The notes below the pieces were generated by a model. It saw only the letters and a list, made by a program, of their open reading frames with translations, searched no databases and was not told where the DNA came from. DNA of 50,867 bases from a virus. This document shows, piece after piece, positions 3,979 to 50,578 of the stretch. Position 1 is the first letter of the stretch. Each line of letters opens with the position of its first letter. The stretch covers positions 1 to 50,867 of IMG/VR virus record IMGVR_UViG_3300009374_000002. The stretch is one strand, 5' to 3'. The position numbers and the translations under genes were made by a program.

Positions 3979-6087
3979 ATGGCGCTGCGTGACTTGTTCG
4001 GGAGGCTTCTTGATACCGTAGTCCTTGGCCCTGTACCCCATGGTGGGAAGGGCTCAAGGATTGCCGGGACCGTCCTTGACCCCTACGACCAGCAGCGGGG
4101 GGTGGGGGTTGCCAGCCGGGGTGAGCCTGAGGACTATTTGAGCACGTATGGCGTCGTCTCAATGGTCTATGCCTGCGTGTTTGAGATAGCTAACACCGTG
4201 GCCAATATACCGCTCGTCGCATACCAGCGCTCCATACGAGGCGGCGCCCGTACCCGGCTGGACGAGTCGGACCCACGGGTGCAGGCATTCTATCGGCCCA
4301 ACCCTCACGTCAGCAGGTACAGCCTGTGGGAGGGGTTGATGACGACGCTGGAGCTGTTGGGTGAAGGCGCCTTCGAGGTCGTATGGTCTGAGCGGGGCCG
4401 CCGGGTTCCCGAGCAGCTGTGGTCGATTGGAAGGCCCGATTACCTGACCATTGTGCCTGATGCAGAGACGTACATTGCCGGGTACAAGTACCAGCGCACC
4501 GGTGAGGAAGTTCCGCTGGAGCGGGACGAGGTGGTCTTCCACAGGTACCAGAACCCTATGAGTCCTATGCGGGGTCTGAGTCCGTTGGCGGCTGCCACGG
4601 ATGCCGTAATAACCGATCGGTATGCCGTGACATATAATGAAAACCTCTTGGAGCAGGGGGCACGGCCGGGCGGGTTGTTGAGCACTGATGACATGCTCAG
4701 CGACGACGAGTTCCATCGCCTGCGTATGCAGTTCAAGCAGAAACATGCGGGGCCGAAGAATGCGTTCCGCACCCTGCTGCTCGAGAAGGGGCTGAAGTGG
4801 ACGCAGGTAACGATGGCACCACGGGACTTGGAGTTCCTCAAGGGCCGGGCGTTCAACTGGAAGGAAATCCTCGCAGTATTCGGCGTGCCCCCGGCGGTGG
4901 TTGGTATATATGAGTCGATGGCGTATGCCAATGCCGTGGAGCAGCGCAAGATGTTCATTGGCGAGACAATAGTGCCCAAGTTGACCCGGTTGGCCGAGGA
5001 CCTGACGCTGTTCGTTCAGATGTTCGTCGACGACCGACTGGTGGTAGAGTTTGACCCCTATGCGTTGCCCGTGATGCAGGAGGGTAAGGCGGTGGCGCGG
5101 GAGCAGAGTAGCAAGGCGCTGCAGGCTGGGGCTATAACAGTGAACGAGTACCGGGCGGACTTGGAGAAGCCACCTATAAAGGGTGGTGATGTGCGGCTGA
5201 TACCGAGCGGGGTTGAGCAGGTAGAGGCAGGCAAGCCCCCGCAGCCTGCGGCGCCACGGGCAGTGCGGGAGGCTGCGGGGCACTGGAAGGTGCTGGCAGA
5301 TGAGGGGGCCGAGGACCTGCGGGAGTGGAAGTTGGTGCGGTGGAAGCAGTTGATGGAGGAGAAGTTGCCGTGGGAGGAGAGGCTGCGGGCTGCGGGGGGC
5401 GGGTACCTTGCGGAGCAGGGCCGGAGGGTGGTTAGTAGGCTGCGGGCCATGGGGCCGGAGGACAGTCTGTTTACCGGGGTGGCTGCCGAGGTGCTGTTGC
5501 CGGTTGAAGAGATTGCGTTGCTTGAGGAGGCATTGCGCAGCGGGGTTGCGGGTGTAGGGGGGGCGGCGGGACGGTACTGGCTGGAGCAGCTGGGTGTGGC
5601 GGATGTGTATGACTTGGACAACCCGTATGTGGTAGCACAGCTGCACAGGCTGCAGGACCAGTACAGGAAGTTCAACGACACTGGACGAGGTCTCCTGACT
5701 GCAGCCCTTACCGGCGTTGTAACAGGTGGTGGGCTGTTGGGGCATGCGGTCCGTGGGGCACGCTCGTTCTACGACGAGGCGGTATGGCGGGCGGACACAT
5801 TGGCAACGACCACAACCACCGGCATGTGGTCGGCCAGCACCCTCGGGGCAATGGTACAGGCACGGGTGCCAAGGACTAATTGGTTGACTGACCACGGGCC
5901 AAATGTGCGGGAGGCACACAGCATGGCTGAGGCCGAGTTCGGGCCGGGCACTCCCGGCATCGAAGTGGGCGAGTTGTTCCGGGTAGGTGGGGAGCTGATG
6001 GAGGCACCGGGCATGGGAGCTGACCCGGCAAACAACTGCAACTGCCATTGCTTCATAATACCCAACACCGAGGAGGTTGTTACGTGA
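3979..6087 (+). CDS. Portal protein fused to a MuF-like minor head domain
   Basis: 702 residues, much longer than a usual HK97-type portal (about 400). Residues 1 to about 390 match the HK97 portal plan (VYACVFEIANTVANIPL, then DEVVFHRYQNP and FGVPPAVVGIY). After a linker, the last 120 residues look like the Mu gpF/SPP1 gp7 head-morphogenesis domain, ending in PANNCNCHCF, which resembles the family's NCRC ending. Portal and MuF proteins are normally separate genes, so this is a natural fusion. The portal forms the dodecameric DNA gate; the MuF part would lie inside the head. It is preceded by GAGGTGAACC. Confidence 0.9.
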   Translation: MALRDLFGRLLDTVVLGPVPHGGKGSRIAGTVLDPYDQQRGVGVASRGEPEDYLSTYGVVSMVYACVFEIANTVANIPLVAYQRSIRGGARTRLDESDPRVQAFYRPNPHVSRYSLWEGLMTTLELLGEGAFEVVWSERGRRVPEQLWSIGRPDYLTIVPDAETYIAGYKYQRTGEEVPLERDEVVFHRYQNPMSPMRGLSPLAAATDAVITDRYAVTYNENLLEQGARPGGLLSTDDMLSDDEFHRLRMQFKQKHAGPKNAFRTLLLEKGLKWTQVTMAPRDLEFLKGRAFNWKEILAVFGVPPAVVGIYESMAYANAVEQRKMFIGETIVPKLTRLAEDLTLFVQMFVDDRLVVEFDPYALPVMQEGKAVAREQSSKALQAGAITVNEYRADLEKPPIKGGDVRLIPSGVEQVEAGKPPQPAAPRAVREAAGHWKVLADEGAEDLREWKLVRWKQLMEEKLPWEERLRAAGGGYLAEQGRRVVSRLRAMGPEDSLFTGVAAEVLLPVEEIALLEEALRSGVAGVGGAAGRYWLEQLGVADVYDLDNPYVVAQLHRLQDQYRKFNDTGRGLLTAALTGVVTGGGLLGHAVRGARSFYDEAVWRADTLATTTTTGMWSASTLGAMVQARVPRTNWLTDHGPNVREAHSMAEAEFGPGTPGIEVGELFRVGGELMEAPGMGADPANNCNCHCFIIPNTEEVVT

Positions 6088-6899
6088 GTAACCAAGGGGG
6101 CCAACCGGCAAGGACCGACAAGGTTCATGCCATCATAGGGGCCGGGCAGGTTGGCACTGCTCTGGCCGAGATGCTTGACGGTGAGTGTCGAGTGGAGATA
6201 ATGGACGTAAAGCGACACGAGGTGGCTGGGGTAGATGTGCTGCACCTGTGTTACCCGTGGCTCACGGTGGCAACGCTGGAGTCGTATGCTGTCGATGTGG
6301 AGACGTTCAGCCCGAGGTACACTGTCATTCATGCCACCGTGAAGCCGGGCACAACGGACAGCTTGGCCCTGATGGTGGACGGGCCGGTGGTGCATAGTCC
6401 GGTGATGGGTAAGCACCCGCACCTCGGGAGGGACATGCAGATGTATACTAAGTTCGTTGCCTCCCGTGACGGCAGTGCCCGCAAGGAGTGCGCCGGGACG
6501 TTGGAGGACTGCGGGGTGCGCACCTATATAATGAAGGACCCACGGGTAACGGAGCTGGGCAAGCTCCTGAGTACCACCCGGTTCGGTATAATACTGGCGG
6601 TGGCACAGGCCACGCAGCGGCTGCTGGACGGGATGGACAGGGCACCTGAGTACAGTGATGTGGTGCTGCAATTCCTTGAGGTCTACAATACCGGCCTCAG
6701 GGAGACGGGCAGGAGCTACTTGGAGCAGCCCATGGTTTTGCCGGGCAGGGTGGGGGGGCACTGTGTTGTGCAGAACTACAGGATACTGCGGGAGTGGGCT
6801 GGGGAGCAGAAGCACGGGTACTGGTTCGTCGAGTTGCTTGATTTCGTCGAAAGACTCAACGGCGAGTTCACCGAAGAGGTGGAGGAAGCGTCATGGTAG
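6084..6899 (+). CDS. Nucleotide-sugar dehydrogenase-like protein
   Basis: 271 residues, GTG start at 6084 with GAGGAGG seven bases upstream, overlapping the portal stop. It has an N-terminal Rossmann motif (IIGAGQVG, G19-G24), a central ELGKLLSTT helix like the family's ELAKLxxN, and a late GRVGGHC with C227. C227 would correspond to the catalytic cysteine of UDP-glucose/UDP-HexNAc 6-dehydrogenases (GxGxGGHC). That family oxidises the C6 hydroxyl of an NDP-sugar to a uronate. The protein is about 150 residues shorter than typical members and lacks the second Rossmann domain, so dehydrogenase activity is an inference. It overlaps and is coupled to the acyltransferase downstream. Confidence 0.7.
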   Translation: MSNQGGQPARTDKVHAIIGAGQVGTALAEMLDGECRVEIMDVKRHEVAGVDVLHLCYPWLTVATLESYAVDVETFSPRYTVIHATVKPGTTDSLALMVDGPVVHSPVMGKHPHLGRDMQMYTKFVASRDGSARKECAGTLEDCGVRTYIMKDPRVTELGKLLSTTRFGIILAVAQATQRLLDGMDRAPEYSDVVLQFLEVYNTGLRETGRSYLEQPMVLPGRVGGHCVVQNYRILREWAGEQKHGYWFVELLDFVERLNGEFTEEVEEASW

Positions 6900-7615
6900 A
6901 CCTTGACGAGTTTGCCCACCTCACGGTGGCACAGGAGCAGCTGCTGGTGGCCAGTGCAGCGTACCAGCCTCCGGTAGTGTACCCATGGGTCAAGCTGGGT
7001 GTTGATGTACGACTTGGACATGGTGCAGTGATGGGGGTGCTGCCCCGGCGGCCAGCGGCCAGTGCAATGACCAGAGAGATGGCAGAGCCCGAGCCGTTGG
7101 TGGTGGGCCGGGATGTGACTGTGGGCAATCGGGCGCTGGTGTATGCAGGCACGGGGCTGGGTGAGGGGGTGTATGTGGCTGACTTTGCCACGGTGCGGGA
7201 GCGGTGTCTGATTGGCGAGCTGACAATAGTGGGCAGGGGCGTGGCGGTGGAGAACGATTGCCGGGTGGGTGCCCGGTGCAAGCTGGAGACGAATGTATAT
7301 CTCACGGCATACAGCACGGTCGAGGACGATGTGTTCCTTGGCCCGTGCGTCATTACATCGAACGACAAGTCGATGGGGCGCACACCGGGCCGTGAGTTCA
7401 AGGGGCCGACGTTCAAGCAAGGGTGCCGTGTTGGTGCCGGAGCCGTCATACTGCCCGGCCTCACCATTGGTGAGGAGGCCTTGATAGGTGCCGGGGCAGT
7501 GGTAACGAAGGACGTGGGACCGCATGAGGTGTGGGTCGGCAACCCGGCCCGGCTGCTGCGCATGGTGGATGCGGCAGAGACACTGGAGGCCGTCCGAGGA
7601 GGAGATGGGCCATGA
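6893..7615 (+). CDS. Left-handed beta-helix acyltransferase
   Basis: 240 residues with at least six hexapeptide turns, including VTVGNRALVYAGTGLG, GAVILPGLTIG and ALIGAGAVVTKDV. It ends in VWVGNPARLLR, the normal end of sugar O- or N-acyltransferases of the WbpD/PglD and maltose-acetyltransferase type. It would transfer an acetyl group to an (amino)sugar. The start at 6893 overlaps the dehydrogenase-like gene and its stop overlaps the protease gene, so the two sugar genes are transcribed with the head genes. In O-antigen pathways a 6-dehydrogenase and such an acetyltransferase act on the same UDP-sugar, which makes the pairing meaningful. Confidence 0.85.
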   Translation: MVDLDEFAHLTVAQEQLLVASAAYQPPVVYPWVKLGVDVRLGHGAVMGVLPRRPAASAMTREMAEPEPLVVGRDVTVGNRALVYAGTGLGEGVYVADFATVRERCLIGELTIVGRGVAVENDCRVGARCKLETNVYLTAYSTVEDDVFLGPCVITSNDKSMGRTPGREFKGPTFKQGCRVGAGAVILPGLTIGEEALIGAGAVVTKDVGPHEVWVGNPARLLRMVDAAETLEAVRGGDGP

Positions 7616-9119: not shown

Positions 9120-10655
9120 TTGTTCAAGACTCTGAAAGAGGCCGTTGACTGGCTTATCGGGCAGGGTATTGACGAGGCCAAGGCGCAGGAGATGGCACCA
9201 GCGCTCGTCATCGAGGAAGCGGAGGCAGGCGGTGAAGCTGCCAAGGTAACACCGGTTCCCGACACCACACCCGAGGCCATAGCGGCCCGCATCAATGAGA
9301 AGCTCGACGAACTTGAGGGCCGCAAGGCCACGGGGTATGACGAGGAGGTCCTGAGCCGCATGGTTGAGGACCAGATCGCTGCCCGTGACGCTGCCCATCG
9401 CAAGGCTGCCGAGCAACTCGAGCCAGCGCACTATGCTAAGGTCAGCATGACCGACCTGAAGGTAGTGGATACCATGGAGCAGTTGCTGGTAACTCCCACC
9501 GAGGACCACGAGGTGCGTGAGTTCCAGCTCGCTTGTGATGACCTCTATATCCTCAACAGCGTACTTGGCTCGAAGGCACGGGCCGAGAACCTGCCGTGGG
9601 GGCCATCAGACTGGTCCAAGCTGAAGACCTTCGGTCGGGTCCACGACATGCTGGCACCAGGACGGACGAGGCTGGGCAAAGCCCTGTACTCGACGGGTGC
9701 TGGTGTCGGTGACGAGTGGGTGCCCACCGGCTTCAGTGCGCAGCTCACTGAGCTGTTTCACCTGCAGTACATGGTGGCTGCTCTGTTTGAGTCCATTCCC
9801 ATGCCTACGAACCCTTACACCCTCCCCGTCGAGGCATCCGATGCCACGGCGTATCTCGCCACGGAGTCGCAGGCCGATGAATCAACCAAGCTCCGGGCCA
9901 GCACACCGGAGACGACCAGCCTGACCTTCACTGCGGTCAAGCTGGCGGCTCGTACGGTGTTCAGTGCCGAGGTGGAGGAGGACAGCATCATTCCCATTCT
10001 GCCATGGGTACGGTTGCAGGTTGCCAAGGCCATTGCCTTCGGTGTTGAGGATGCAATCCTCAACGGTGACAGTGCAGGCACGCACCAGGACACCAACGTG
10101 ACGGGCAGCGACGACGCCCGGAAGAGTTGGTTGGGTCTGCGTGCTGCTGCCATCGATGGCACCAGCCTCACCACGTCGTTCAGCAATGCCGAGCCCACGC
10201 TCGAGTTGCTGCGCGACGTGCGGGAGTTGCTGGGCACCCGTGCAGGTGATCCCGGCAATCTTGCTCTCATCGTTTCGGCCCTCGAGTACATCAAGCTTCT
10301 GGGCATCACCCAGGTCTTGACGCTTGACCAGTATGGCCCTGCAGCCACAGTGCTGACGGGCGAGCTGGCCAAGATCGATGGCATCCCCATCGTCACGTCC
10401 GAGAAGATGCAGGACAACCTCGGCGCCAGTGGGTACTACGATGGCGTGAACACGGACCGGTCGAGCGTCATACTGGTCCATCGCCCCTCGTGGTTGCTGG
10501 GCGAGCGTACCGGCATCACCGTGCGTTCGGTGGAGGACATCGAGACGGACCAGACTAAGATGGTCAGCAAGATCCGGCAGGACTACCAGGCGGTGTTCCC
10601 GGTGACCACGGCTGCGAACAAGGTTGTGGCCCTCGGGTACAACATTGCTACGTAG
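9120..10655 (+). CDS. Major capsid protein (HK97 fold)
   Basis: 511 residues, TTG start at 9120, chosen because ATTGGAGGTACACG lies directly upstream and the N-terminus begins a good helical region. Residues 1 to about 130 are helical and charged, as in a delta/scaffolding domain removed by the upstream protease. The rest follows the HK97 capsid pattern, with a mid-protein ILPWVRLQVAKAIAFGVEDAILNGDS segment (E-loop/spine helix region) and a C-terminal VEDIETDQTKMVSKIRQDYQ block. It is the main shell subunit. The gene has more GATC sites (five) than its neighbours. Confidence 0.92.
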   Translation: MFKTLKEAVDWLIGQGIDEAKAQEMAPALVIEEAEAGGEAAKVTPVPDTTPEAIAARINEKLDELEGRKATGYDEEVLSRMVEDQIAARDAAHRKAAEQLEPAHYAKVSMTDLKVVDTMEQLLVTPTEDHEVREFQLACDDLYILNSVLGSKARAENLPWGPSDWSKLKTFGRVHDMLAPGRTRLGKALYSTGAGVGDEWVPTGFSAQLTELFHLQYMVAALFESIPMPTNPYTLPVEASDATAYLATESQADESTKLRASTPETTSLTFTAVKLAARTVFSAEVEEDSIIPILPWVRLQVAKAIAFGVEDAILNGDSAGTHQDTNVTGSDDARKSWLGLRAAAIDGTSLTTSFSNAEPTLELLRDVRELLGTRAGDPGNLALIVSALEYIKLLGITQVLTLDQYGPAATVLTGELAKIDGIPIVTSEKMQDNLGASGYYDGVNTDRSSVILVHRPSWLLGERTGITVRSVEDIETDQTKMVSKIRQDYQAVFPVTTAANKVVALGYNIAT

Positions 10656-10701: not shown

Positions 10702-11046
10702 ATGACCCTCGAATCCTTGACCAATCTCGGCTCACGTTTCGGCTGGGACAATCCGGTAGCAGGAACGCCGGACCTGAAGAGCGTGCTGACCGAGCTGCAG
10801 GGGTGGCAGGTGGATGTAATCCGTGGGGCAGATACCGCTTCGGTGGATCTGTCTATCAGTGGCATTGCCACCACGGACACCATCCTCAAGGCGCTCCGGT
10901 TCGATGTTGTGGCGGCTTCTGGGCTTCAGGAGGTCGTGGAAATTGCTGCGGCGAGCATCAAGGTTCGCTCGACTGGCAACGTCCGTGTGACTGCTGCAAC
11001 GAACAAAATCGACTTCATCGTTCTCTTCTGGTACGACAAGGCATAG
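10702..11046 (+). CDS. Small virion-associated protein, possible capsid decoration
   Basis: 114 residues following the capsid gene, with GAGAGAT before the ATG. It is rich in Ser, Thr, Val and Ile and predicted mostly beta, with no recognisable catalytic motif. Its position right after the capsid is where decoration or head-stabilisation proteins often lie. The many Ser/Thr residues would also suit a glycosylation target for the adjacent glycosyltransferase, but this is speculation. Confidence 0.55.
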   Translation: MTLESLTNLGSRFGWDNPVAGTPDLKSVLTELQGWQVDVIRGADTASVDLSISGIATTDTILKALRFDVVAASGLQEVVEIAAASIKVRSTGNVRVTAATNKIDFIVLFWYDKA

Positions 11047-11049
11047 CCG

Positions 11050-13119
11050 GTGTCTACCAGAGGCCAAGCGACGAAAGTCGATTCCCAGCAGGGGGTACCG
11101 GCCACAACCGGTGCCCCCACGTTGGGGCTCGTGATGATGGCACGGGATGAAGAGGTACGTATTGAGCAGGCACTGCGTTCTGTGGCTGGTGTCTGTGACC
11201 ATATGCTGGTGGGAGTCGACGACAAGACCGTTGACCGCACTTACGAGATTGCTGAGGCCTGTGGGGCCGAGGTCTTTTATTTCACCTTCGATGAGGATTT
11301 TTCTACCGTACGCAATATGCTGCTGACCAGATGTCCGTGTGATTGGGCACTGGTGCTGGATGGGCACGATGAGTTGAGTGCTATGTCCCGGCAGATTGTG
11401 CCTGAGGCTATCAAGACGGTGCCACTGGAAATCAATGTCATCAAGGGGCTGGTTGAAATTGACCGGGACAAGTTTGGAAACCCCGGTTGGGTCATACAGC
11501 AGCCAAGGCTGATACGCACTTCCTCGGCGGTGCATTATGTCAACGAGGTACATAATGCTTTGCACCATACTGAAGAGGAGATGGCGGAAGCCAACCAAGT
11601 TGTCATACGTGACTTCAAGCCACCTGATCGGCAGGTGGCTCGCAAGGCACAACGCAGCGACCTCAATCTGCGTTATTTCCTCGGGAAGGTGAAGGCTGAC
11701 CCACGTGACGAGAGGGCGTGGTATTATCTTGGTGCTGCCTACCTTGAGCGTGAGGAGTGGGTTGAGGCTATAGCGGCATACCGGAAATATCTGAAGTATG
11801 GCACGTGGCGCATTATGCGTGTGCGTGCCCGTATGACGGTGGCACAGTGCTACGTGCAGATGGAGAAGTACGGCAAGGCGAGGCAGGAGGCGTTGCAGGC
11901 GCTGCGGGAGGGGCCGGAGCGGGTGGAGCCGTTGCTCATGCTGGCTGCCGTTGCCGAGAAGGATGGCGACATGGGCGAGGCTATTGCATGGATGCAGCGC
12001 AGTACTAATGTACAGATGCCAGCCAAGTTCATGGAACTTGATGTGGGTGATTATACGTGGCGCCCGTGGAAAATCCTCATGCATCTGTATGTGAAGGTTA
12101 ATGCTGCCCGTGACGTGATAATGGCAGCTAATAAAGTGCTATCATACATGCCCGATGACGAGAGTGCATTGGTGGCTGGTGAGATGGCACGCAAGCATCT
12201 TGGGCTGGTTGACCGGCGTAACGCCAACACCCGTGTGGTGGTGGTTGACCACCTGGCAACATTCTCCCGGCAGATAGGTGAGGCTATATACCGGCGCTCG
12301 TGGGTGCAGCGCATAGAATTGTATGACTTGAAGCAGGCAGAAGATGCCACGCACATATTCGTCGAGTGGGCTGGCCGGAACCTGGTAGCAGCTACTGTGA
12401 ACCGTAACTCTGACCAGAGACTGGTGACCCGGTTGCATTCGTATGAGGCTTATGAGGCAACGCTGCGGCAAGTGAGGTGGAGCGAGGTGGATGCTGTTGT
12501 GTTTGTTGCCGAGCATGTGAGGGATTATGTGATGGGCCAGGTATCACACCTGCCTCTTGAACGGACACGGGTCATACCGGTGGGTGCTGACCTTGAGCGG
12601 TTTGCCTTCGAGCCGGAGGCAAGGGACATGCAGCTGGTGGCATGGATGGGTAGGTTGGCACGGGAGAAGGGTGTGCCAATGCTTGTGGAAATAGCTCGGT
12701 TGAACCCTGACCTCACTTTCGTTGTGGGTGGTGAGTTTCAGCATGGTGAGATAGAACGGTACTTATTGGAGCGGAGTCCACAGAACCTGGTGTATACGGG
12801 GTACGTAAAGAGGCCAGAGGAGTTTCTGCGAAAGCCCGGCTTCATAGTGAATACCAGTGTGCGTGAAGGCAGCCCGGTGGCGGTGGCTGAGGCGGCTGCT
12901 ATGGGGTGTGTGCCGTTGGTGCATTACTGGCCGGGTGCGCAGACGCTGTGGCCTGAGTTTATGTTTGATGGTGCCAGTGACTTCAGGCGCATGTATGACA
13001 CCGTGTTGGCGAATTATGCGAATGCTCAGCGTGGTGCTCGTGCTGTAGTAGAGGAGCGTGATGATGGGCAAAGGAACAACGAGATGTTGGTCGATGTAAT
13101 CCTTGGAGTGGAGGCCTAG
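11050..13119 (+). CDS. Bifunctional glycosyltransferase: GT2 - TPR - GT4 fusion
   Basis: 689 residues, GTG start at 11050. Residues about 25-200 form a family-2 (GT-A) domain with LGLVMMARDEE at its start and an acidic LVLDGHDE (D104-D107) in the DxD position. Residues about 205-340 are helical TPR-like repeats (AWYYLGAAYLEREEWVEAIAAY and following). Residues about 380-689 form a GT-B domain of the GT4 type, with VIPVGADLERF, MGRLAREKG and the EX7E motif EGSPVAVAE (E606/E614). Both halves look intact. It would transfer sugars from activated donors to a protein or glycan in the cytoplasm. Its place between capsid and connector genes suggests a virion substrate. Confidence 0.85.
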   Translation: MSTRGQATKVDSQQGVPATTGAPTLGLVMMARDEEVRIEQALRSVAGVCDHMLVGVDDKTVDRTYEIAEACGAEVFYFTFDEDFSTVRNMLLTRCPCDWALVLDGHDELSAMSRQIVPEAIKTVPLEINVIKGLVEIDRDKFGNPGWVIQQPRLIRTSSAVHYVNEVHNALHHTEEEMAEANQVVIRDFKPPDRQVARKAQRSDLNLRYFLGKVKADPRDERAWYYLGAAYLEREEWVEAIAAYRKYLKYGTWRIMRVRARMTVAQCYVQMEKYGKARQEALQALREGPERVEPLLMLAAVAEKDGDMGEAIAWMQRSTNVQMPAKFMELDVGDYTWRPWKILMHLYVKVNAARDVIMAANKVLSYMPDDESALVAGEMARKHLGLVDRRNANTRVVVVDHLATFSRQIGEAIYRRSWVQRIELYDLKQAEDATHIFVEWAGRNLVAATVNRNSDQRLVTRLHSYEAYEATLRQVRWSEVDAVVFVAEHVRDYVMGQVSHLPLERTRVIPVGADLERFAFEPEARDMQLVAWMGRLAREKGVPMLVEIARLNPDLTFVVGGEFQHGEIERYLLERSPQNLVYTGYVKRPEEFLRKPGFIVNTSVREGSPVAVAEAAAMGCVPLVHYWPGAQTLWPEFMFDGASDFRRMYDTVLANYANAQRGARAVVEERDDGQRNNEMLVDVILGVEA

Positions 13120-13123
13120 CGGT

Positions 13124-14149
13124 ATGAGCAAGGATATGGTGATAGGGTATCATGACCTTGTCAACGTGCGGCTGGTGAATATTCCGCACGGTTTCGAGCA
13201 GCTGTTGTATGGGGAGTTGGCGTTCCTGCAGCCTGACAATGTCACGGAGATACATGGTGAGGTGCGGTTTGTTGACAAGGTACCGGACAATGGGCCGTGG
13301 CAGCATGTGAGTAAGTTGGCCCGGTACAATGATACCATGTACTGCATCGTTGACGACAATTTCAGTAAGGTTGCGCTGCCTTTCGATGACATGGTGGCTG
13401 GTACAAGGCCATGGGTGATGTATGTGGAAGTGGGTGGTACGTGGCCGTGGTACTACATCTACGGGATACTTGAATTCTTTGTGAAGCTGTCGGCCGTCCA
13501 GGCGGGTGCTGTCTTTGCCCATGCTTCCGCATTCGCCCCGGCGGGTGGTGATGCTACGGTGGTGACGGCTTTCGCTGGCACTGGCAAGACTTCTACCATG
13601 CTGCATGCTGTGCATGGGGGAGACATGTTTCTGGCCGACGACTATGTGTTGCTGTACAAGGGGCAGGTGCTGGCGTATCCGAAGCCAATGAACCTGTACA
13701 GGTACAATGCTGATGAGTGCCCGTGGCTGTTGGATATAATCAAGGACGAAAAGGACCGTACCAAGCTGGAGGGTAGTATGTGGAGGGTGCGCAGCCCGCT
13801 GCAGACGTTCATGCCCGAGGCGAAGATTGGTTATCAGGCTCCATTGGGTACGGTGATATTCCTGACCCGTTCTGACCGCAGCACCCCTGATGTGCGTACG
13901 GTTGAGTGTAGTTGGTTGGCACGCAAGATGGCTCGGTGCCTTGCTTATGAGCGCCGGGAGTTTGATGGGTGGTACAGGACTTGGGCTTACGCACGGGTGT
14001 CTGAGCTTGATATGGTTGACAGGCTGCAGACGGCGGAAGCCAGCATACTGCGCAGCACCTTACAGGGTGCTCGCACCTTGGCTGTGGAGGTACCCGCAGA
14101 TGTACCGGCGGCGGACCTGCATGGCCTCATCAAGGAGGTATCAAAGTGA
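13124..14149 (+). CDS. HPr kinase/PEP carboxykinase-like P-loop protein
   Basis: 341 residues. ATG at 13124 is chosen over the upstream TTG at 13103 because GGAGTGGAGG lies just before it. Residues 140-160 carry a P-loop (VVTAFAGTGKTSTMLHA, G152-T156), followed by DMFLADDYVLLY, which fits the aspartate-containing second motif of HPrK-like kinases. Relatives occur beside glycosyltransferases and in peptide-modification clusters. The real substrate is unknown; it may be a sugar, a peptide or the neighbouring glycosyltransferase. The N-terminal 120 residues are not recognised. Confidence 0.7.
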   Translation: MSKDMVIGYHDLVNVRLVNIPHGFEQLLYGELAFLQPDNVTEIHGEVRFVDKVPDNGPWQHVSKLARYNDTMYCIVDDNFSKVALPFDDMVAGTRPWVMYVEVGGTWPWYYIYGILEFFVKLSAVQAGAVFAHASAFAPAGGDATVVTAFAGTGKTSTMLHAVHGGDMFLADDYVLLYKGQVLAYPKPMNLYRYNADECPWLLDIIKDEKDRTKLEGSMWRVRSPLQTFMPEAKIGYQAPLGTVIFLTRSDRSTPDVRTVECSWLARKMARCLAYERREFDGWYRTWAYARVSELDMVDRLQTAEASILRSTLQGARTLAVEVPADVPAADLHGLIKEVSK

Positions 14150-23764: not shown

Positions 23765-26047
23765 ATGGCAGATGTAGCCATACACTTGAAGAGCTTGCCG
23801 GGTGCGGATGTTGCGCATGACGTGACGTTCTACGAGGAGCCACCGTACGGTGGTGGCCGTGAGGACCGGGATACGATGGTGGGAGTGATGGATGGAGCCA
23901 TACGTACCGGAGAGCGGCGTATACGTAGGGACTTGATGTTACGGGACGTTTACTTGCAGCGGGCCGATAAACTGGCGTTGGATGACTTGGCCGAAAGCCG
24001 TGAGCGGGTGGTGGTGAGCCCGCCGTGGGATGGGGAAGACACACTTACTTACCTGCCGCTGCAGGGCACGCTGTACGACCAATGGGTTGAGGACAAGCGG
24101 GGGCAGATAACATTCGCCCGCAAGTGTACCCGTTTCAACCCCGTAACGGGTGCCCCGGTTGGATTCGATGAACCCCTCTACACTGACGCCCCCTTCGGTA
24201 AGGGCATCAACGTGGGTGATGTGATAAATGACACCCACTTTCCCAGCTTCGAGGTAAAGTCATACGTTACGGTGAACGCCAGCGACTCGGGCTCGACCAC
24301 GGTTATAACAGTCAAGGACGCCACGCACTTCTATGCCACCCAGCTCGTGATGGTTAGCACTGAGGGTGTGGCAACGAACTTGTATGAGGCGGCAAAGATA
24401 TCGAGCATTTCAGGCAACCAGCTCACACTGACAGATACTGCTGGTACTGCTGCATTGACCAATACGGCATCATTCACTCGGGCCAACCGGACGTATGTTT
24501 CGAGTAACCTCATATCTGATGGCCAGATGGAAGACTCGGGTATGGGTAGCTGGGCCGATACTGGCTCGCCTTCATTGACTCAGAAGACGGATACGATGCA
24601 GGAGACAGGCAGCCGGGGGCTGTATTGTGAAGCTGGTGATGCGAATGATGGTGTTATACAGACGCTGACATTCCAGGGCGGCACGGACTTGGTGGTTTTC
24701 ATACGGGTACGGAATATATATGTGACGGCTGGTGGTGAGCTGCAGGTGCGTTTAGAAGATCAAGAAGAGCAGTACAATGGCACAGCATGGACATGGTTGC
24801 GGTATTGTTATCAGGTTGGCGGGGCGGGTGACCAGACGTTCCGGCTCTATATAAGGCAGAACGATGGCAATGCGTTGGCCTTTGTGGTTGACCGTGTTGA
24901 GATGTATGAGAATGCTGTTGGTAATGGTGGCTTCGAAGGAGTGTATGTCGGTGGTGCCGGGAGCGATGTTGCGCCGGAATGGGCGGCTGATGGAGCGGGG
25001 ACATTCGATGAATCGGCAACCGAGCACAGTGGAGATGCGGCCCAAGATATTGATGTCGCGGCTGCGGCTCGCGGTATCGTCTCCTCGGCCAATGTGTTTG
25101 CGTCTGGGGCTTGGTATTATGTCGGAGGATATTTTCAGGTATCATCCGGCGAAGCGCTTATTTCCACTGAGTCGGCTAACGAGATTGTAGCCGAACTCGA
25201 TAGCACCGTCTATGCCTCATATGCAGTCGCTCATGCGCTATGGCTTGCGGACGCAACAGAAAAAATTAAAGTGCTTTCTGATAGCGGTGCGGCTGACTTC
25301 TTGGTTGATGACGTGTGGGCCATCCGCATCCCGGGCACCTCGTCCGACGGCGGGCCGTACGATGACGCATACTACGACCTCCCGGAGGCGCTTTCGACGA
25401 CCGGGTTCACGGTGTTTGGGATGTGGCGACCTGATTCTGCTAGAGATGCTGCTGCCATCGACCCATACATGGTCGGCTTTTCAAGAAGAACATATGACTC
25501 GAATGACAAATTCTTGGTCGTTTACGATGAGTCTGTCGGCAAACTTGTGTTCCACATGGAGGAGGATGGAAATGGCTCTGTCAGAATCGAGTTGGCTGAT
25601 TTGTTTTCGGCTGGGGACGATGTGTTCTGGGCGTATAAGATTAGTGGGGCGGCGGGGTCACAAAATGCGAAGGCGTGGTTTAAGGTCGGGAGCGATGCTA
25701 CAGTAACCGGAACTGTAGGCTCCGGGGAAACACCGACCGGAATGACTCGTATGTGGGTTGGGCGTTCTCCTGCATCTTATGGTTTCTTCGCTCGTGGTGC
25801 GCTTGTTTGCATCCTGATAGAAAACTCAGTCCTTACTGATGCCCAAGTCGAGGCGCTCCTTGACTTGTTTGCTGGCACCGACGCCAACCGACTGGCCCTG
25901 CTGGAGGAGGTGCATAGTGTTGAGTATGAGATAGAGCCGGGCAGCATGGAAGTGATACCGCAGCAGCTGGGCGGCATGTACCGTGCGAACCTTACGTTGC
26001 GTGAAGTGAGCAGGGTGGGTGAGCCGGTGAGTGTGCAGGACGCCTGA
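23765..26047 (+). CDS. Large tail/baseplate protein with carbohydrate-binding-like domains (paralogue 2)
   Basis: 760 residues. ATG at 23765 is chosen because GGGGGAGTGACGAGA precedes it and the N-terminus then aligns with paralogue 1. The plan is the same: conserved attachment N-terminus, CBM-like blocks (NLISDGQMEDSGMG; GNGGFEGVYVGG), a LamG-like block (DAYYDLPEALSTTGFTVFGMW) and conserved C-terminus (LALLEEVHSVEYEIEPG). A composition shift appears at about 25010-25860. The pair arose by tandem duplication, with later divergence of the sugar-binding middle. Confidence 0.7.
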   Translation: MADVAIHLKSLPGADVAHDVTFYEEPPYGGGREDRDTMVGVMDGAIRTGERRIRRDLMLRDVYLQRADKLALDDLAESRERVVVSPPWDGEDTLTYLPLQGTLYDQWVEDKRGQITFARKCTRFNPVTGAPVGFDEPLYTDAPFGKGINVGDVINDTHFPSFEVKSYVTVNASDSGSTTVITVKDATHFYATQLVMVSTEGVATNLYEAAKISSISGNQLTLTDTAGTAALTNTASFTRANRTYVSSNLISDGQMEDSGMGSWADTGSPSLTQKTDTMQETGSRGLYCEAGDANDGVIQTLTFQGGTDLVVFIRVRNIYVTAGGELQVRLEDQEEQYNGTAWTWLRYCYQVGGAGDQTFRLYIRQNDGNALAFVVDRVEMYENAVGNGGFEGVYVGGAGSDVAPEWAADGAGTFDESATEHSGDAAQDIDVAAAARGIVSSANVFASGAWYYVGGYFQVSSGEALISTESANEIVAELDSTVYASYAVAHALWLADATEKIKVLSDSGAADFLVDDVWAIRIPGTSSDGGPYDDAYYDLPEALSTTGFTVFGMWRPDSARDAAAIDPYMVGFSRRTYDSNDKFLVVYDESVGKLVFHMEEDGNGSVRIELADLFSAGDDVFWAYKISGAAGSQNAKAWFKVGSDATVTGTVGSGETPTGMTRMWVGRSPASYGFFARGALVCILIENSVLTDAQVEALLDLFAGTDANRLALLEEVHSVEYEIEPGSMEVIPQQLGGMYRANLTLREVSRVGEPVSVQDA

Positions 26048-29000
26048 TGCCAATTGCTGTATTGCATCCTACGGTGGCCTATTGGGCCGACGAGCGGAAC
26101 CCTGCCACCACGCATGGTGGCGAGGACACGCTGGAGCTGGATGCCAATGTAGATGACCGCAAGTATGCATATGTGAAGTTCGATTTAAGCTCCATTCCCG
26201 CCAGCGCCACCATCATTGATGCCCACCTGCGGTTGTACGTCGAGGTGGCTGCCTACACGGGTGACGCAGTAACTGTTCACCGTTGCACCACGGCGTTCAC
26301 CGAGGCCAGCACGTGGGCGTCGAAGCCCTCGGTGGCGGGGTTTGCTACCGAGGCAATGCTCAATCACCCGAAGCAGCATACGTGGGAGGACTGGGAGCAG
26401 GAGTGGAGCGGGTATGACCCACGGGGTACGTATGGGGTGCCCCGGTACTGGTGCCAGCGCATGGTCGAGGATTGGTATGACGGCACCTATGACAACCATG
26501 GATTCGCCATAATAATTGCAGACGGTGCCGATGCCTATACCTTGACGGGTCGCATAGGTGTCTATCACCTCAGGCCAATACTTGAGGTGGAGTATGCTGA
26601 AGGGGATACGTTGCCCGCCAGTGCTGGGGATGACGTGGTTGACCTTGTGGGCAGCGCACTGGATGCCTTGAACATGGGTACCGTTACTGGGCTTGATTGG
26701 GCAGTTACGTTGGAATTGGATGACGGGGACGAGGACGTGACGGGTGCGTTGGCTGGAAGCCCCATGCTGCGCAGGAAGGCCGGGTTTGTTGGGGAGCGGG
26801 CCGAGCTGGGGCGCTTTACCATGAAGCTTGAGAACGTGGACGGTCGGTACAGCCCCACCAATCGGGCCAGCCCCTTGTACCAGCGCCGGGCGTATGGGCG
26901 GACGGTGAAGATTGAGGCCACGGTGTTGGGGCAGACAGTAAGTGCGTACCAAGGCGAAATAGATGATGTGGTGCAGTACGATGATGGCACCACAGAGGTG
27001 CTGACGACCAGCGTGCTGCGCAGGAAGTTGGCCTACAGGTTGAATACCCCCATGGAGAACTATGGGGTTGACCCAATAGTACGCAGCAGCCTGGTGAAAA
27101 AGAACCCTGCTGACATATTGTATGACATTGCTCACAATTACTCGGGCCTGCCTGATACGAAGATAAATCTCAGCACACTGGTGGCGGCCAAGGCCATATG
27201 GACGGCACAGGGTGTTACGCTGAGTGCCACGTGGGATAACGAGGAGGCATGGGCTGAGTTGCTGGCGGTGGCTGAGGCGGCCATGTGTACGGTGTACCCT
27301 GATGCATTGGGCCGACTGGCCTTCAAGGTATGGGTGCCGAGCGAGCCGACCACGACGGACCTTGAGCATGCGGGAACGTTGCGGTGGCGTGAGGACACTG
27401 GGGTGGTGCACAACGTGCTGGTGCTGGGGTATGAGTGGGTGCCGCCGGGTGAGGAGGAGCCGGTTGGGGGTGAGGTGAAGATGGCCGACCGGGCCTCGTT
27501 TGATGATTATGGACAGCGGGACAAGACGATTAGCACCCGGTACATACGCACCCCTGAGCTGGCTACGAAGATGGGACAGCTGTACTTGCAGGCATTGGCT
27601 GACCCGCTGGGCAGGGGGGCAGCCGAGGGTGGTGTGGCGTGGCTGCAGCACGACCTGTTCGATGCGGTGCGTGTTGTGCGGACCGTAGATGAGCTGGACG
27701 AGTCGTGCCTTGTCACAGAGCAGCGCATTGACATATTGGGCGGCAAGGTTGGTGTGGAGTTTGTGCGGGCCAACTGGCCGCTGCCCCGGCGGGACTTTGT
27801 CAACCTGTTGGACTGGTCTACGGGGGCCGTGAGTGAGTCGTACGTGGGCTCAATGGCCAACCCCGTGGCTGATAGCATTACAGGACCAACGCTGCAGAGC
27901 GATGGTTCGATGGAATTCACCATAGGCTGGACATACGATGTGGTGGATGTACCTCACCGGGGGTTCGCCATCTTTGCCAATGCCGCCACCAGCAGTCCAG
28001 CCGGTGTGCCTACAGTAGCCAGCCACGATCTGCTGTTCTTTGTTGAGGCCAATGCCCGCAGCTACACCTTCACTGGCCTCCCGGCCAACTCCTATGTCAC
28101 TGTCATCGTGGCCGCATACCGTGGCACTACTACCCGGCCATATTATGGGACACTGGTTGGTTCGGATGCAACCCCCGACTGGACGGACGTGAACCTGGTG
28201 GGCAGCATCATAAGTGGCAGCGTGCCTACCAATGCCCCGGCCATAAGTACCGGTGCGGCTGATGCTGACCCGCTGGGCGGAACCTTCTACACGTTGGTCT
28301 GGACGTACACGCAGGGCGCCATAGAGGCCGAGGGGTTCTACCTTATAGCCAACTTCGGTGAAGCCTCGCCCGGCCTCCCGACGCTGGCTGACCATGAATG
28401 GGGCATGTATATGGACCCGCGGGTACGGACTATAACGATACCCGGCCCGAAGATGACCAAGTACACCTCGTTCGGTATTGCAGCCTATAGGCAGACCATT
28501 GTGGGGCTTGCGTACACGGCGCTGGATACACATGCGCAGTGGACTGACCTGCGGGCTGGTACTGCCAACATAATTGGTGACACGGTATATGTGGGTGACG
28601 ACGAGGATGTCACGGGCAAGAACTTGCGGGACCGGACTAAAGATGCAGCGCCTACCAATGACCCAGCTGCGGCGTCGATTGCTGTCACCGAGGAGGATGA
28701 TGGCTCGGGTCGTGTTACAGTGGGCTGGACGTATGCACAAGGTGCTCTTCCAGCCGATGGGTTGTTGCTGTTGATAAACATCAGTGATGCTGCTGATAAT
28801 GCAGCTCCAACCGTGACCTCGTTTGATATGTCCCAACAGGTAGCTGCGGCCAATGACACGTACGAAGTCATCGGATTCCCGTCAACGAAGTATTTTTATT
28901 TCGGCATCGTAGCCTACCGTGACACACTCACAGGTCGCCAGTATGGGGCAGTCATCACTTCGGCAACAGCCCCGGATTGGCAGAACTTCCAGGTGGCAGC

Positions 29001-29781
29001 AACCATAACGCTGGACGATGACGTCGAGGTAGATGGGCGCACCCTTGTTCTTATTAAGACCGATGTTGATGATGCGTTCCTTAAAACCACCAACGACACA
29101 GATGACCTTGTTGAAGGTGCTGCGAAATTCGTTACCGCCAACGAGAAGCTTGGTGCCGAGGATGCGTTCGCCCATCTGGACGATGATGGTCTGAAGGCTA
29201 CTGCCAAGATAGGTGCTACACTGGCCAGCACGGTTGAGTCAAATTCCAATGATGCATTCTTGAAATCCACCGACGACTCAAGCAATTTACCAATGGCATC
29301 CGCTCCCAGCGTTTCAGTCGATGATGTTATTGGCGAGGTTCTGATTTTCAATGACAACTTCATCACCAGCGCCGGTGGAGCAGATACCACCACGCCACCA
29401 CAGCGCACGTTCACGAGGAATACGTCCGGCGTCGAAGTGTACTATATGCTCAAGGCTGTGTTCCGGAAGCTGGCCGGGTATAACACCATGCGGTGCGTGG
29501 CGTATGTGAAGGAGTCATCAACGTGGGACACCAACCACGACTCAGACATCATGCTTCGTATAATGAATTACACTGGCCTTGTGCAGCAGTTGATTCTCAA
29601 CACCGACATCACTGGGGTTGGGGCATATACAAAGACAACTATGGACCTTGATATTTCCGGGCTTACCAATGGGGAGATATATCAGGTATGGCTCGGGTAC
29701 GAAATTGACAACAAGGTTGGTGGCAGCGGCTCCACATCAATCTACATGTGGGCACCTGTTCTTGTGGCGCGACCGGAATAG
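26047..29781 (+). CDS. Giant tail hub/fibre protein: DNRLRE - hub - FN3-like repeats - jelly roll
   Basis: 1244 residues, ATG overlapping the previous stop. Residues 1-185 are a DNRLRE-type beta domain (YAYVKFDLSSIPASATIIDAHLRLYV) found in secreted adhesive proteins. About 200-600 resemble a tail-hub protein (GELGRFTMKLENVDGRYSP-like region, ILYDIAHNYSG). Three FN3-like repeats follow, starting near 609, 722 and 864, each with a WTY, AAYR/AYR and PDW or QW signature. A repeat-like linker (DDAFLKTTNDTDD; NDAFLKSTDDSS) leads to a C-terminal jelly roll (about 1090-1244). It probably builds the tail tip and binds the host surface. Confidence 0.72.
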   Translation: MPIAVLHPTVAYWADERNPATTHGGEDTLELDANVDDRKYAYVKFDLSSIPASATIIDAHLRLYVEVAAYTGDAVTVHRCTTAFTEASTWASKPSVAGFATEAMLNHPKQHTWEDWEQEWSGYDPRGTYGVPRYWCQRMVEDWYDGTYDNHGFAIIIADGADAYTLTGRIGVYHLRPILEVEYAEGDTLPASAGDDVVDLVGSALDALNMGTVTGLDWAVTLELDDGDEDVTGALAGSPMLRRKAGFVGERAELGRFTMKLENVDGRYSPTNRASPLYQRRAYGRTVKIEATVLGQTVSAYQGEIDDVVQYDDGTTEVLTTSVLRRKLAYRLNTPMENYGVDPIVRSSLVKKNPADILYDIAHNYSGLPDTKINLSTLVAAKAIWTAQGVTLSATWDNEEAWAELLAVAEAAMCTVYPDALGRLAFKVWVPSEPTTTDLEHAGTLRWREDTGVVHNVLVLGYEWVPPGEEEPVGGEVKMADRASFDDYGQRDKTISTRYIRTPELATKMGQLYLQALADPLGRGAAEGGVAWLQHDLFDAVRVVRTVDELDESCLVTEQRIDILGGKVGVEFVRANWPLPRRDFVNLLDWSTGAVSESYVGSMANPVADSITGPTLQSDGSMEFTIGWTYDVVDVPHRGFAIFANAATSSPAGVPTVASHDLLFFVEANARSYTFTGLPANSYVTVIVAAYRGTTTRPYYGTLVGSDATPDWTDVNLVGSIISGSVPTNAPAISTGAADADPLGGTFYTLVWTYTQGAIEAEGFYLIANFGEASPGLPTLADHEWGMYMDPRVRTITIPGPKMTKYTSFGIAAYRQTIVGLAYTALDTHAQWTDLRAGTANIIGDTVYVGDDEDVTGKNLRDRTKDAAPTNDPAAASIAVTEEDDGSGRVTVGWTYAQGALPADGLLLLINISDAADNAAPTVTSFDMSQQVAAANDTYEVIGFPSTKYFYFGIVAYRDTLTGRQYGAVITSATAPDWQNFQVAATITLDDDVEVDGRTLVLIKTDVDDAFLKTTNDTDDLVEGAAKFVTANEKLGAEDAFAHLDDDGLKATAKIGATLASTVESNSNDAFLKSTDDSSNLPMASAPSVSVDDVIGEVLIFNDNFITSAGGADTTTPPQRTFTRNTSGVEVYYMLKAVFRKLAGYNTMRCVAYVKESSTWDTNHDSDIMLRIMNYTGLVQQLILNTDITGVGAYTKTTMDLDISGLTNGEIYQVWLGYEIDNKVGGSGSTSIYMWAPVLVARPE

Positions 29782-48204: not shown

Positions 48205-49296
48205 ATGATTAAACGAACAATGAACAAAAAATTGGCTCAGGCAAAGAGTTCAAAGAAAGATGAGTTCTACACTCAGCTTCCGGACATTGAAAGGGAGTTG
48301 AAGCATTATAAGAAACATTTCAAGGGTAAGGTGGTGTACTGCAACTGTGACGACCCAAGAGTCAGCAATTTTTTCCATTACTTCTCGTATAACTTTGAGA
48401 AATTGGGTCTCAAGAAACTAATCACCACCTGCTACAAGAATCAGGAAATGGACCTATTCAGCAGACACGACTCTGAACAAGCAATCTATTTGGAATATGA
48501 CGGTGATAAGAACAGGAACAACATCCCCGACCCTGAGGAAATAGGAATCAAGCAATTGAAGGGTGATGGCGATTTTAAAAGCGAAGAATGCATCAATCTA
48601 TTGAAAAAAGCCGATATAGTGGTGACGAATCCGCCTTTCTCACTCTTCCGTGAATACGTAGCCCAACTCATAGAGCATGACAAGAAATTCGTGATTATCG
48701 GGCATCAAAACGCTATTACCTACAAAGAGGTTTTTGAACTCTTAATGGAAAATAAAATCTGGCTTGGCTATGGTTTCAAGGGTGGCGCAACACATTTCAT
48801 CACACACTACGAAGACCATGCAACTGCTGGCGACCACAGAGAAGGTATGGTTAGGGTGTCAGGCGTTCACTGGTTTACGAATCTCGATATCGCTAAGCGT
48901 CACGAAGACCTGATTCTCTATAAGACCTTTAGCCCTGAAGAATATCCCCACTATGACAACTATGACGCCATTGAAGTAGGGAAAACGAAGGATATTCCGG
49001 CAGATTACGGAGGCGTAATGGGTGTACCTATTACATTTCTTGATAAATACAATCCTAGTCAATTCGAAATTGTTGGGATTACTAAAACTTGGTTCGGTAC
49101 TGCGATAAAAAAATATCCCACGCAAATACAGGTGAATACAGATGGCCAAAGAAGCGAAGTGACTAAACTAAACGATGGGGCCACGCTGAAGATAGACTCC
49201 CCCCCTAAGAATAAGACTTATTACATGGTAGAAAATGAATACTATGTTCAATTATACGCACGTGTACTCATCAAGCGAATTGGAGACACAATGTGA
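48205..49296 (+). CDS. EcoRI-type adenine-specific DNA methyltransferase
   Basis: 363 residues (or 358 from ATG 48220); neither start has a strong ribosome site. KDEFYTQLPDIERELKHY and DIVVTNPPFSLFREYV (N142PPF145) mark the EcoRI-methylase family, which methylates adenine. Later KFVIIGHQNAITYKE and GGVMGVPITFLDKYNPSQFEIVGI are typical of it. The gene is complete and AT-rich, clearly foreign to the phage core. It overlaps the next frame (ATGTGAAC), as a methylase-plus-DUF262 pair would. Confidence 0.9.
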   Translation: MIKRTMNKKLAQAKSSKKDEFYTQLPDIERELKHYKKHFKGKVVYCNCDDPRVSNFFHYFSYNFEKLGLKKLITTCYKNQEMDLFSRHDSEQAIYLEYDGDKNRNNIPDPEEIGIKQLKGDGDFKSEECINLLKKADIVVTNPPFSLFREYVAQLIEHDKKFVIIGHQNAITYKEVFELLMENKIWLGYGFKGGATHFITHYEDHATAGDHREGMVRVSGVHWFTNLDIAKRHEDLILYKTFSPEEYPHYDNYDAIEVGKTKDIPADYGGVMGVPITFLDKYNPSQFEIVGITKTWFGTAIKKYPTQIQVNTDGQRSEVTKLNDGATLKIDSPPKNKTYYMVENEYYVQLYARVLIKRIGDTM

Positions 49297-49511: not shown

Positions 49512-49728
49512 GGACAGCAATCAAGTCTTTGGCAGGAGTTTGGGCGAGCCATTCGGGTACTTCGACCCCGTCTCGTGCTCGTGGAAAACGTACCAGCTCT
49601 CCTTTCTAGAGGGCCTGACCGAGTTCTCGGGGACTTGGCCACGCCGGCCTCTGAAGGGATTAGCAAATGAAGAACACTCTCTACTACGGCGACAACCTCG
49701 AAGTCCTCAAGCTCCACATCCCGGATGA
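49501..49728 (+). CDS. Alternate-frame phage protein fragment (SWKTYQ...FSGTWPR)
   Basis: In the frame one base away from the cytosine-methylase piece, the same bases read VFGRSLGEPFGYFDPVSCSW, then KTYQLSFLEGLTEFSGTWPR. This matches my memory of a phage/metagenome protein family usually found beside cytosine methylases (SWRTSQ...FSGTWPRSGM). The similarity also stops at about 49649. It is a fragment; whether it is translated is unknown. Confidence 0.4.
   Translation: MILRDSNQVFGRSLGEPFGYFDPVSCSWKTYQLSFLEGLTEFSGTWPRRPLKGLANEEHSLLRRQPRSPQAPHPG
49512..49670 (+). pseudogene. DNA cytosine-5 methyltransferase, middle piece
   Basis: In the same frame as the DUF262 fragment: GQQSSLWQEFGRAIRVLRPR, then LVLVENVPALLSRGPDRVLGDLA. 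This is the part of a C5 methylase that follows the PCQ motif, including the ENV motif VI, and it continues the piece at 47686-47943. It ends at about 49648, where unrelated sequence (TPASEGISK) begins. Codon style differs from the N-terminal piece, so it may be from another allele. Confidence 0.75.
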
Positions 49729-50578
49729 GTCAGTCGATTTGATGTACCTAGACCCACCATTTAAATCGAACCAAGATTACAACGTGTTATTTGCTGAGAA
49801 GAATGGTTCTGACTCGGCTGCACAGATACAGGCATTTGAAGACACCTGGCGCTGGGATATGAGTGCTGCAGAGGCCTTTGAAGAGATCGTTGAGGCTGGC
49901 GGAGAAGTATCGCAGGTGATGCAAGCATTCCGGACTTTCCTTGGTTCCAATGATATGCTCGCCTATCTCTCGATGATGGCACCCAGACTCATTGAGCTTC
50001 AGCGAGTGTTAAAGCAGACGGGATCTATCTATCTCCACTGCGATCCGACAGCAAGTCACTATATCAAGGTTATGATGGATGGGATATTCGGACACAAGAA
50101 CTTCAGAAACGAGGTTATCTGGAGACGTACTGGTGCTCACGGAAGAGCAAAGAGATGGGGACCAATTCATGACACCATTCTGTTCTATACAATGTCAAAT
50201 AAGTACACATGGAACAGAGTCTTTGAGGAATATGACCCTGAATACATTGAGAAATTCTATACGAAAAATGATGAGCATGGACAATACGGGCATGTCACAC
50301 TTGATGGACCAGGTATCAGGACTGGTGACTCTGGAAAACCTTGGAGGGAGATTGATCCGACTAAGAAGGGGCGACATTGGGAGGTTCCGCCAGATAGGGC
50401 GCTTCCAGAATGGTTTGAACATCCCGATGGATATTCAAAACTGACCATACAAGAGCGTCTAGATGTCCTTGATGGACAAGGACTTATATACTGGCCGGAG
50501 CGTGGGACTGTTCCTCAATACAAGAGATACTTGGGGGTGTCTGAGGGGGGCAACTCGGGAAAGAGGTTGCGGCGATAG
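49667..50578 (+). pseudogene. Beta-class DNA adenine methyltransferase, N-terminal part (truncated)
   Basis: 303 residues. NTLYYGDNLEVLK, then DLMYLDPPFKSNQDYNVLF (D29PPF32), is motif IV of type III Mod-like enzymes; GSIYLHCDPTASHYIKVMMD and YKRYLGVSEG follow. Family members continue with DVWTDI and a C-terminal FxGSGTT motif. Here the similarity ends at YLGVSEG (base about 50547), followed by a short basic tail and stop. The missing half is not the piece at the left end of the window. Confidence 0.85.

Follow-up and report, generated by a model that had tools for sequence, protein, structure and literature searches.

A capsid-linked phage GT2-TPR-GT4 fusion protein and its proposed role in virion glycosylation

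The gene at 11050-13119 of the window, the 50,867-nucleotide stretch of viral DNA analysed here (IMG/VR record IMGVR_UViG_3300009374_000002), encodes a protein in which a GT2 domain, a TPR region and a GT4 domain are joined in one chain. With modest confidence we assign it to the glycosylation of a virion protein, with the two transferase domains acting in some combination. Adjacency to the capsid gene is no proof of substrate; it is the recurrent linkage of a whole phage family to the genes for the major capsid protein (MCP) or TerL that makes virion glycosylation the best reading. We infer an active enzyme, a virion protein as its acceptor and both domains at work, and the sugar used is likewise a prediction. 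The features of the window that bear on this assignment are listed in the table.

Features of the fusion protein and its neighbours in the window
Feature	Position	Strand	Size and basis
GT2-TPR-GT4 fusion protein	11050..13119	+	689 aa, GTG start; Pfam, PHROG, profile alignment, AlphaFold, fold search
GT2 (GT-A) domain	11131..11631	+	residues ~28-194; Pfam PF00535; GmaR and SunS matches
Helical TPR region	11635..12225	+	residues ~196-392; Pfam TPR models, AlphaFold helices
GT4 (GT-B) domain	12226..13119	+	residues ~393-689; Pfam, AlphaFold, motif columns
Putative capsid decoration protein, candidate acceptor	10702..11046	+	114 aa, beta-rich; position, homologues after MCP
Major capsid protein, other candidate acceptor	9120..10655	+	PF05065 E 8e-14; phage MCP matches
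Nucleotide-sugar-dehydrogenase-like, short, GGHC motif	6084..6899	+	TIGR03026 E 2e-5 over residues 93-272, below cut-off
Left-handed beta-helix acyltransferase, NeuD/PglB/VioB-like	6893..7615	+	Hexapep E 2e-21; TIGR03570 E 2e-26, below cut-off
P-loop protein weakly similar to HPrK-related/FomB kinases, encoded immediately after the fusion gene	13124..14149	+	E 1e-5, far below cut-off

Domain architecture and active sites

Each of the three parts of the protein has a Pfam match above its curated cut-off: Glycos_transf_2 at residues 28-110 (26.0 bits, cut-off 23.3), TPR_16 (44.1 bits, cut-off 32.7), with further TPR models spanning residues ~205-320, and, in the GT4 domain, both Glyco_trans_1_4 at residues 530-625 (36.9 bits, cut-off 27) and Glycos_transf_1 (32.3 bits, cut-off 26.4). 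The profiles phrog_13126 and phrog_2170 cover residues 28-379 (E 1.2e-27) and 433-625 (E 8.5e-8). The AlphaFold model, computed from a 34-sequence alignment, has a mean pLDDT of 78.9, with values mostly above 80 in GT2, mostly above 90 in the TPR region, about 60-87 in GT4 and below 50 at residues 391-434. This last segment lies at the N-terminal Rossmann domain of GT4, for which the Glyco_transf_4 match at residues 413-517 reaches 19.7 bits, under the cut-off of 28.5. The original prediction of two complete-looking glycosyltransferase folds joined by TPR repeats is thus borne out for the three domains, while "complete-looking" overstates the case, since GT4 has a short N-half that the model covers only in part, and the signature of the GT2 active site is changed.

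The TPR region sits directly C-terminal to the GT-A domain, the arrangement characteristic of enzymes of the SunS/ThuS/GmaR type. The best single-sequence match of the GT2 domain is GmaR (E 2e-7), and SunS matches at E 0.007. In Foldseek, the top fold matches of the GT2-TPR half are SunS and ThuS (E ~1e-17), with a TM score of 0.72 on SunS 7msp; OGT and SPY (SPINDLY) come next at E 1e-9 to 1e-13, with TM scores of just 0.21-0.25. The analogy to enzymes that hold a protein substrate with their TPR region, on which the prediction had drawn, therefore extends to homology in sequence and fold with enzymes acting on peptides or proteins.

The active site of this half is divergent. All 33 aligned phage relatives have D-x-D-D where the window protein has D104-G-H106-D107, and GmaR and SunS align as IDAD at this site. 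The His-Glu pair invariant in the same 33 relatives, and kept in GmaR, is H168-N169 in the window protein. D104, D107, H168, R88 and R202 are retained. Since DGH departs from the DxD metal/donor motif, the protein is not filed as a canonical member of the SunS/ThuS/GmaR type. A DxH motif is functional in the animal GALNT enzymes, so the D106H replacement weakens the claim of GT2 activity and does not kill it. The window protein is homologous to the SunS/ThuS/GmaR group and would work like it, and its DxH may be a functional variant.

The GT4 domain has the canonical motifs of the C-terminal donor domain, GRLAREKG (534-541, the GRLxxEKG motif) and E606-x7-E614, the second Glu of which is replaced by Lys in 18 of 33 relatives. 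Its N-half lacks the GGSEE motif of the phage family and has SRQIGEA there instead. Loss of catalytic residues, which the prediction had named as evidence against itself, is thus found in part in GT2 (D106H and E169N), while the GT4 donor motifs are kept.

This distribution of motifs raises a single-step alternative, in which GT4 alone glycosylates a head protein and GT2 is a remnant or a scaffold for binding acceptor or donor. The replacements at two positions that are uniform among the relatives, together with an E-x7-E pair that more than half of them have lost, speak for it. It is a serious competitor, though the less likely reading, given the five retained GT2 residues, a GT-A fold modelled with good confidence and the precedent of a working DxH.

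A phage family linked to capsid and terminase genes

The one other copy found of the window protein is 100% identical and comes from a single sample. A search of 50,697 phage records with the window protein gave no complete relative, only distant GT2-TPR matches, and a five-way alignment of these direct distant matches was too divergent for scanning. The family was reached via a bridge, a 567-residue Manatee Spring phage protein encoded beside its terminase gene; the viral scan from this bridge returned 218 relatives, of which 80 were kept. The family is large and is spread over many unrelated phages that are uncultured. They are of two types, full GT2-TPR-GT4 chains of about 735-1100 residues and shorter chains of about 550-620 residues that end between the two Rossmann halves of GT4, the missing half being in a downstream gene. 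The family profile matches GmaR at E 5.9e-34 and SunS at E 4.8e-28.

In profile comparison, the window protein aligns collinearly with 21 other phage proteins over residues 21-625 (hhalign, 99.7%, E 6.8e-27), so the likeness is not due to chance; identity in the alignment is 15-21%. It shares domain order and capsid/terminase neighbourhood with family members such as L090, L122 and MW202524, and differs from them in its divergence, its altered GT2 motifs, its canonical GT4 motifs and its short GT4 N-half. Common ancestry of the whole fusion, as judged from these alignments, is likely and not proven. Since single-sequence searches did not match the window GT4 domain to that of the family (no WGTC hit), and since this domain on its own reaches 70% probability (E 4e-5) in profile alignment, the GT4 fusion of the window protein may be separate in origin from that of the family.

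After GT proteins more than 90% identical were dropped, 69 loci remain, 62 of which have at least 2.5 kb of upstream sequence. Of these 62 non-redundant viral loci, 51 have the start of the family gene no more than 2 kb downstream of an MCP gene (SU10-type, 39 loci) or of TerL (12 loci); in the other 11 neither lies within 2 kb. Random placement in a 40-50 kb genome would be expected to give about 5% per marker, a rough estimate made without a formal test. Since the search seeds were terminase-adjacent proteins, the MCP linkage is not built into the search. In most cases 350-750 bp and a single small gene separate the family gene from the MCP gene, and in 47 of the 69 loci, as in the window, the family gene follows a small ORF at -15 to +35 bp. 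These small ORFs belong to several unrelated families and do not imply a common acceptor. The complete genome MW202524 has the order MCP, 165-residue ORF, GT2-TPR-GT4, followed by more glycosyltransferase and methyltransferase genes. Its MCP is PF17236 (SU10_MCP), while that of the window is PF05065 (Phage_capsid), so two MCP families are represented among phages with this arrangement. The suspected link to the capsid is in this way strengthened, because phages whose MCP is of another family repeat the window's order of MCP gene, small ORF and fusion gene.

Several relatives have unusual gene structures. In L078-L087 (e.g. L008:5986-9877), the N-half of a split GT4 is fused to GT2-TPR and is followed by a groEL gene and then by a separate gene for the C-half. 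GT4 is likewise split in L111, L120, L123, L134 and L135, where the ORFs overlap by 4 bases, and the second protein of L134:7836-11074 combines the GT4 C-half with another GT2. The split forms are reminiscent of Alg13/Alg14, a two-subunit GT-B enzyme. In L103:7929-11288 (and L104), an intein with a splicing domain and LAGLIDADG lies within the GT4 of a 1119-residue GT2-TPR-GT4 protein.

In one phylum, reached arbitrarily, 58 of 297 genomes contain cellular matches to the family profile, with three candidates per genome scored, and nearly all of these matches are to the GT2-TPR part. Among them, one open frame alone matches both GT4 and GT2, in the different order TPR-GT4-GT2-TPR; this is an 803-residue bacterial chromosomal protein (L178:7726-10137, minus strand), at a site without phage genes.

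Neighbouring genes and candidate acceptors

The fusion gene is co-directional with the MCP gene and starts about 395 bp past its end, and the stop of the intervening ORF at 10702-11046 lies three bases upstream of it. The original prediction had this spacing exactly right; its description of the small product as a virion protein is a deduction from position and homologues. The product is modelled by AlphaFold as beta-rich, with a mean pLDDT of 78.5. Homologues lie directly after the MCP gene in L032, L054 and L064, with a match below threshold in L061, and the domain is tandemly repeated in L032, L054 and L061. The predicted model and the pattern of homologues fit a decoration protein and do not prove one. 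When the fold of the product was searched, nothing in the PDB matched below E 0.08, and the one viral hit (E 1.7e-4) was an uncharacterised phage protein.

Two sugar-metabolism-like genes, at 6084-6899 (start set from a Shine-Dalgarno sequence) and 6893-7615, sit between the portal and protease genes. No phage match was found for the P-loop protein at 13124-14149, and its functional link to the glycosyltransferase is uncertain.

For the window's own group, 63 MCP relatives were fetched, and the downstream comparison is limited to those containing that region. The slot between MCP and head-tail connector holds a GT4 gene in L057 and a gene for a GT2-like protein in L022; glycosyltransferase genes throughout this MCP clan were considered and rejected, most inserts in the slot being other genes. 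Between the MCP and the GT2-like gene of L022 lies an ORF that by eye resembles a TnpB-type transposase (L022:8334-9440). The proteins of L063:8655-9395 and L069:8482-9291, which are 41% identical and whose genes overlap the beta-rich gene after MCP, look GT-A-like by eye and were not counted, since neither Pfam nor PHROG has a match for them. Immediately following the capsid gene region, L013:4684-6216, L062:3098-4582 and L071:8663-10105 encode phrog_1574, an N-terminal domain of uncharacterised function, joined to a methyltransferase, a layout that recalls the GT2-methyltransferase Che8 gp108.

Elsewhere in the window, 26047-29781 encodes a 1244-residue protein with an N-terminal CBM96 carbohydrate-binding domain, probably tail-associated by its position, and 48205-49296 encodes an EcoRI-type adenine methylase. 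An apparent C-terminal part of an N6/N4 DNA methylase at 65-979 and an apparent N-terminal part at 49667-50578 suggest, from their placement at the two ends, that the genome is circularly permuted and interrupted by a gap; the window showed no terminal repeat.

Proposed function and comparison with known systems

The protein would be a phage-encoded cytoplasmic protein glycosyltransferase produced alongside the proteins of the head. One of these, the capsid protein or the beta-rich product of 10702-11046, would most likely be held by the TPR segment while a transferase domain adds sugar to it from nucleotide donors. In the fullest form of this scheme, GT2 would add the first sugar and GT4 would extend it into a short capsid glycan. 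The dehydrogenase-like and acyltransferase-like neighbours hint at a modified sugar. That both domains would be active and build a disaccharide, as originally predicted, is the weaker part of the reading, since the two-step model depends on a GT2 domain whose metal site is non-standard.

A wider generalisation is put forward more tentatively, as a possibility somewhat short of probable. The protein would represent a widespread phage module in which a SunS/GmaR-like transferase is fused via TPR to a GT4, or to a half-GT4 completed in trans, next to the capsid gene in phages whose MCPs belong to different families, where it makes a short head glycan. The window protein would then be a divergent case, its catalysis having moved to GT4.

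Assembly or modification of a polysaccharide or host-surface glycan, as by TPR capsule polymerases or serotype-converting phage enzymes, is improbable. Cps3D and Cps7D do combine TPR with two transferases (PMC11666461), and 8qoy is among the fold matches, but 8qoy fits with a TM score of just 0.23, peptide or protein glycosyltransferases come closest by both fold and profile, and the gene lies among head genes and not in a lysogeny module. A TPR head assembly factor with transferase domains that are no longer catalytic would accord with the position between head genes, the altered GT2 motif and the groEL genes beside the homologue in ten related loci; it is more improbable still, since nothing is missing from the donor-site motifs of GT4, and the GT2 motifs are strictly conserved across the family. 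Glycosylation of hypermodified phage DNA is the most remote of the readings: some phage glycosyltransferases modify DNA, according to work cited in PMC12619734, but the window genes scanned, on a contig that may be incomplete, include DNA methylases and no base-hypermodification enzyme, and the TPR protein-binding region and the SunS/GmaR homology point to proteins.

If virion glycosylation by a recurrent, capsid-linked two-domain family is true, it would suggest that decorated capsids are common in uncultured phages, and the family gene would be a marker by which to find them. It would also supply a defined enzyme, with candidate acceptors, to express in laboratory E. coli. A small number of actinobacteriophages are reported to have glycosylated capsids, which affects antibody recognition, as PMC11256854 puts it in citing Freeman 2023. 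The split GT4 relatives pose a further question of enzymology.

Phage virion glycosylation (Che8), TPR-bearing protein glycosyltransferases (SunS, GmaR) and capsule enzymes with TPR and two transferases are already known. No description of the fused, capsid-linked GT2-TPR-GT4 family was found in the open-access papers searched, and on that literature the family looks undescribed. O-GlcNAc transferase and SPINDLY belong to GT41, not GT4; like the window protein they have TPR adjoining a GT-B fold, but they have no GT2 domain. SunS and ThuS keep the DxD motif, have no GT4 domain and act on bacteriocin peptides. In these peptide S-glycosyltransferases (PDB 7msn, 7msp, 7msk), as in the window protein, a GT2 GT-A domain is followed by a helical/TPR region. 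The same order of GT2 and TPR is found in GmaR, the Listeria flagellin O-GlcNAc transferase (PMC9638930; PDB 22ao), which modifies flagellin and has a linker and a MogR antirepressor domain after the TPR in place of any GT4. Its authors propose that the TPR region recognises the protein substrate (PMC9638930). Mycobacteriophage Che8 resembles the window phage in encoding a GT2 enzyme; the Che8 capsid is reported to carry glycans in the passages of PMC11256854 and PMC12619734 that cite Freeman 2023. However, Che8 gp108 is encoded at the right end of the genome and in scans shows a GT2 and a methyltransferase but neither TPR nor GT4, and the window protein is not a GT2-methyltransferase enzyme. 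The capsule polymerases Cps3D and Cps7D unite TPR with a pair of transferase domains in a single chain (PMC11666461), but they are bacterial, both of their transferase domains are GT-B and their polymer is built on a lipid anchor.
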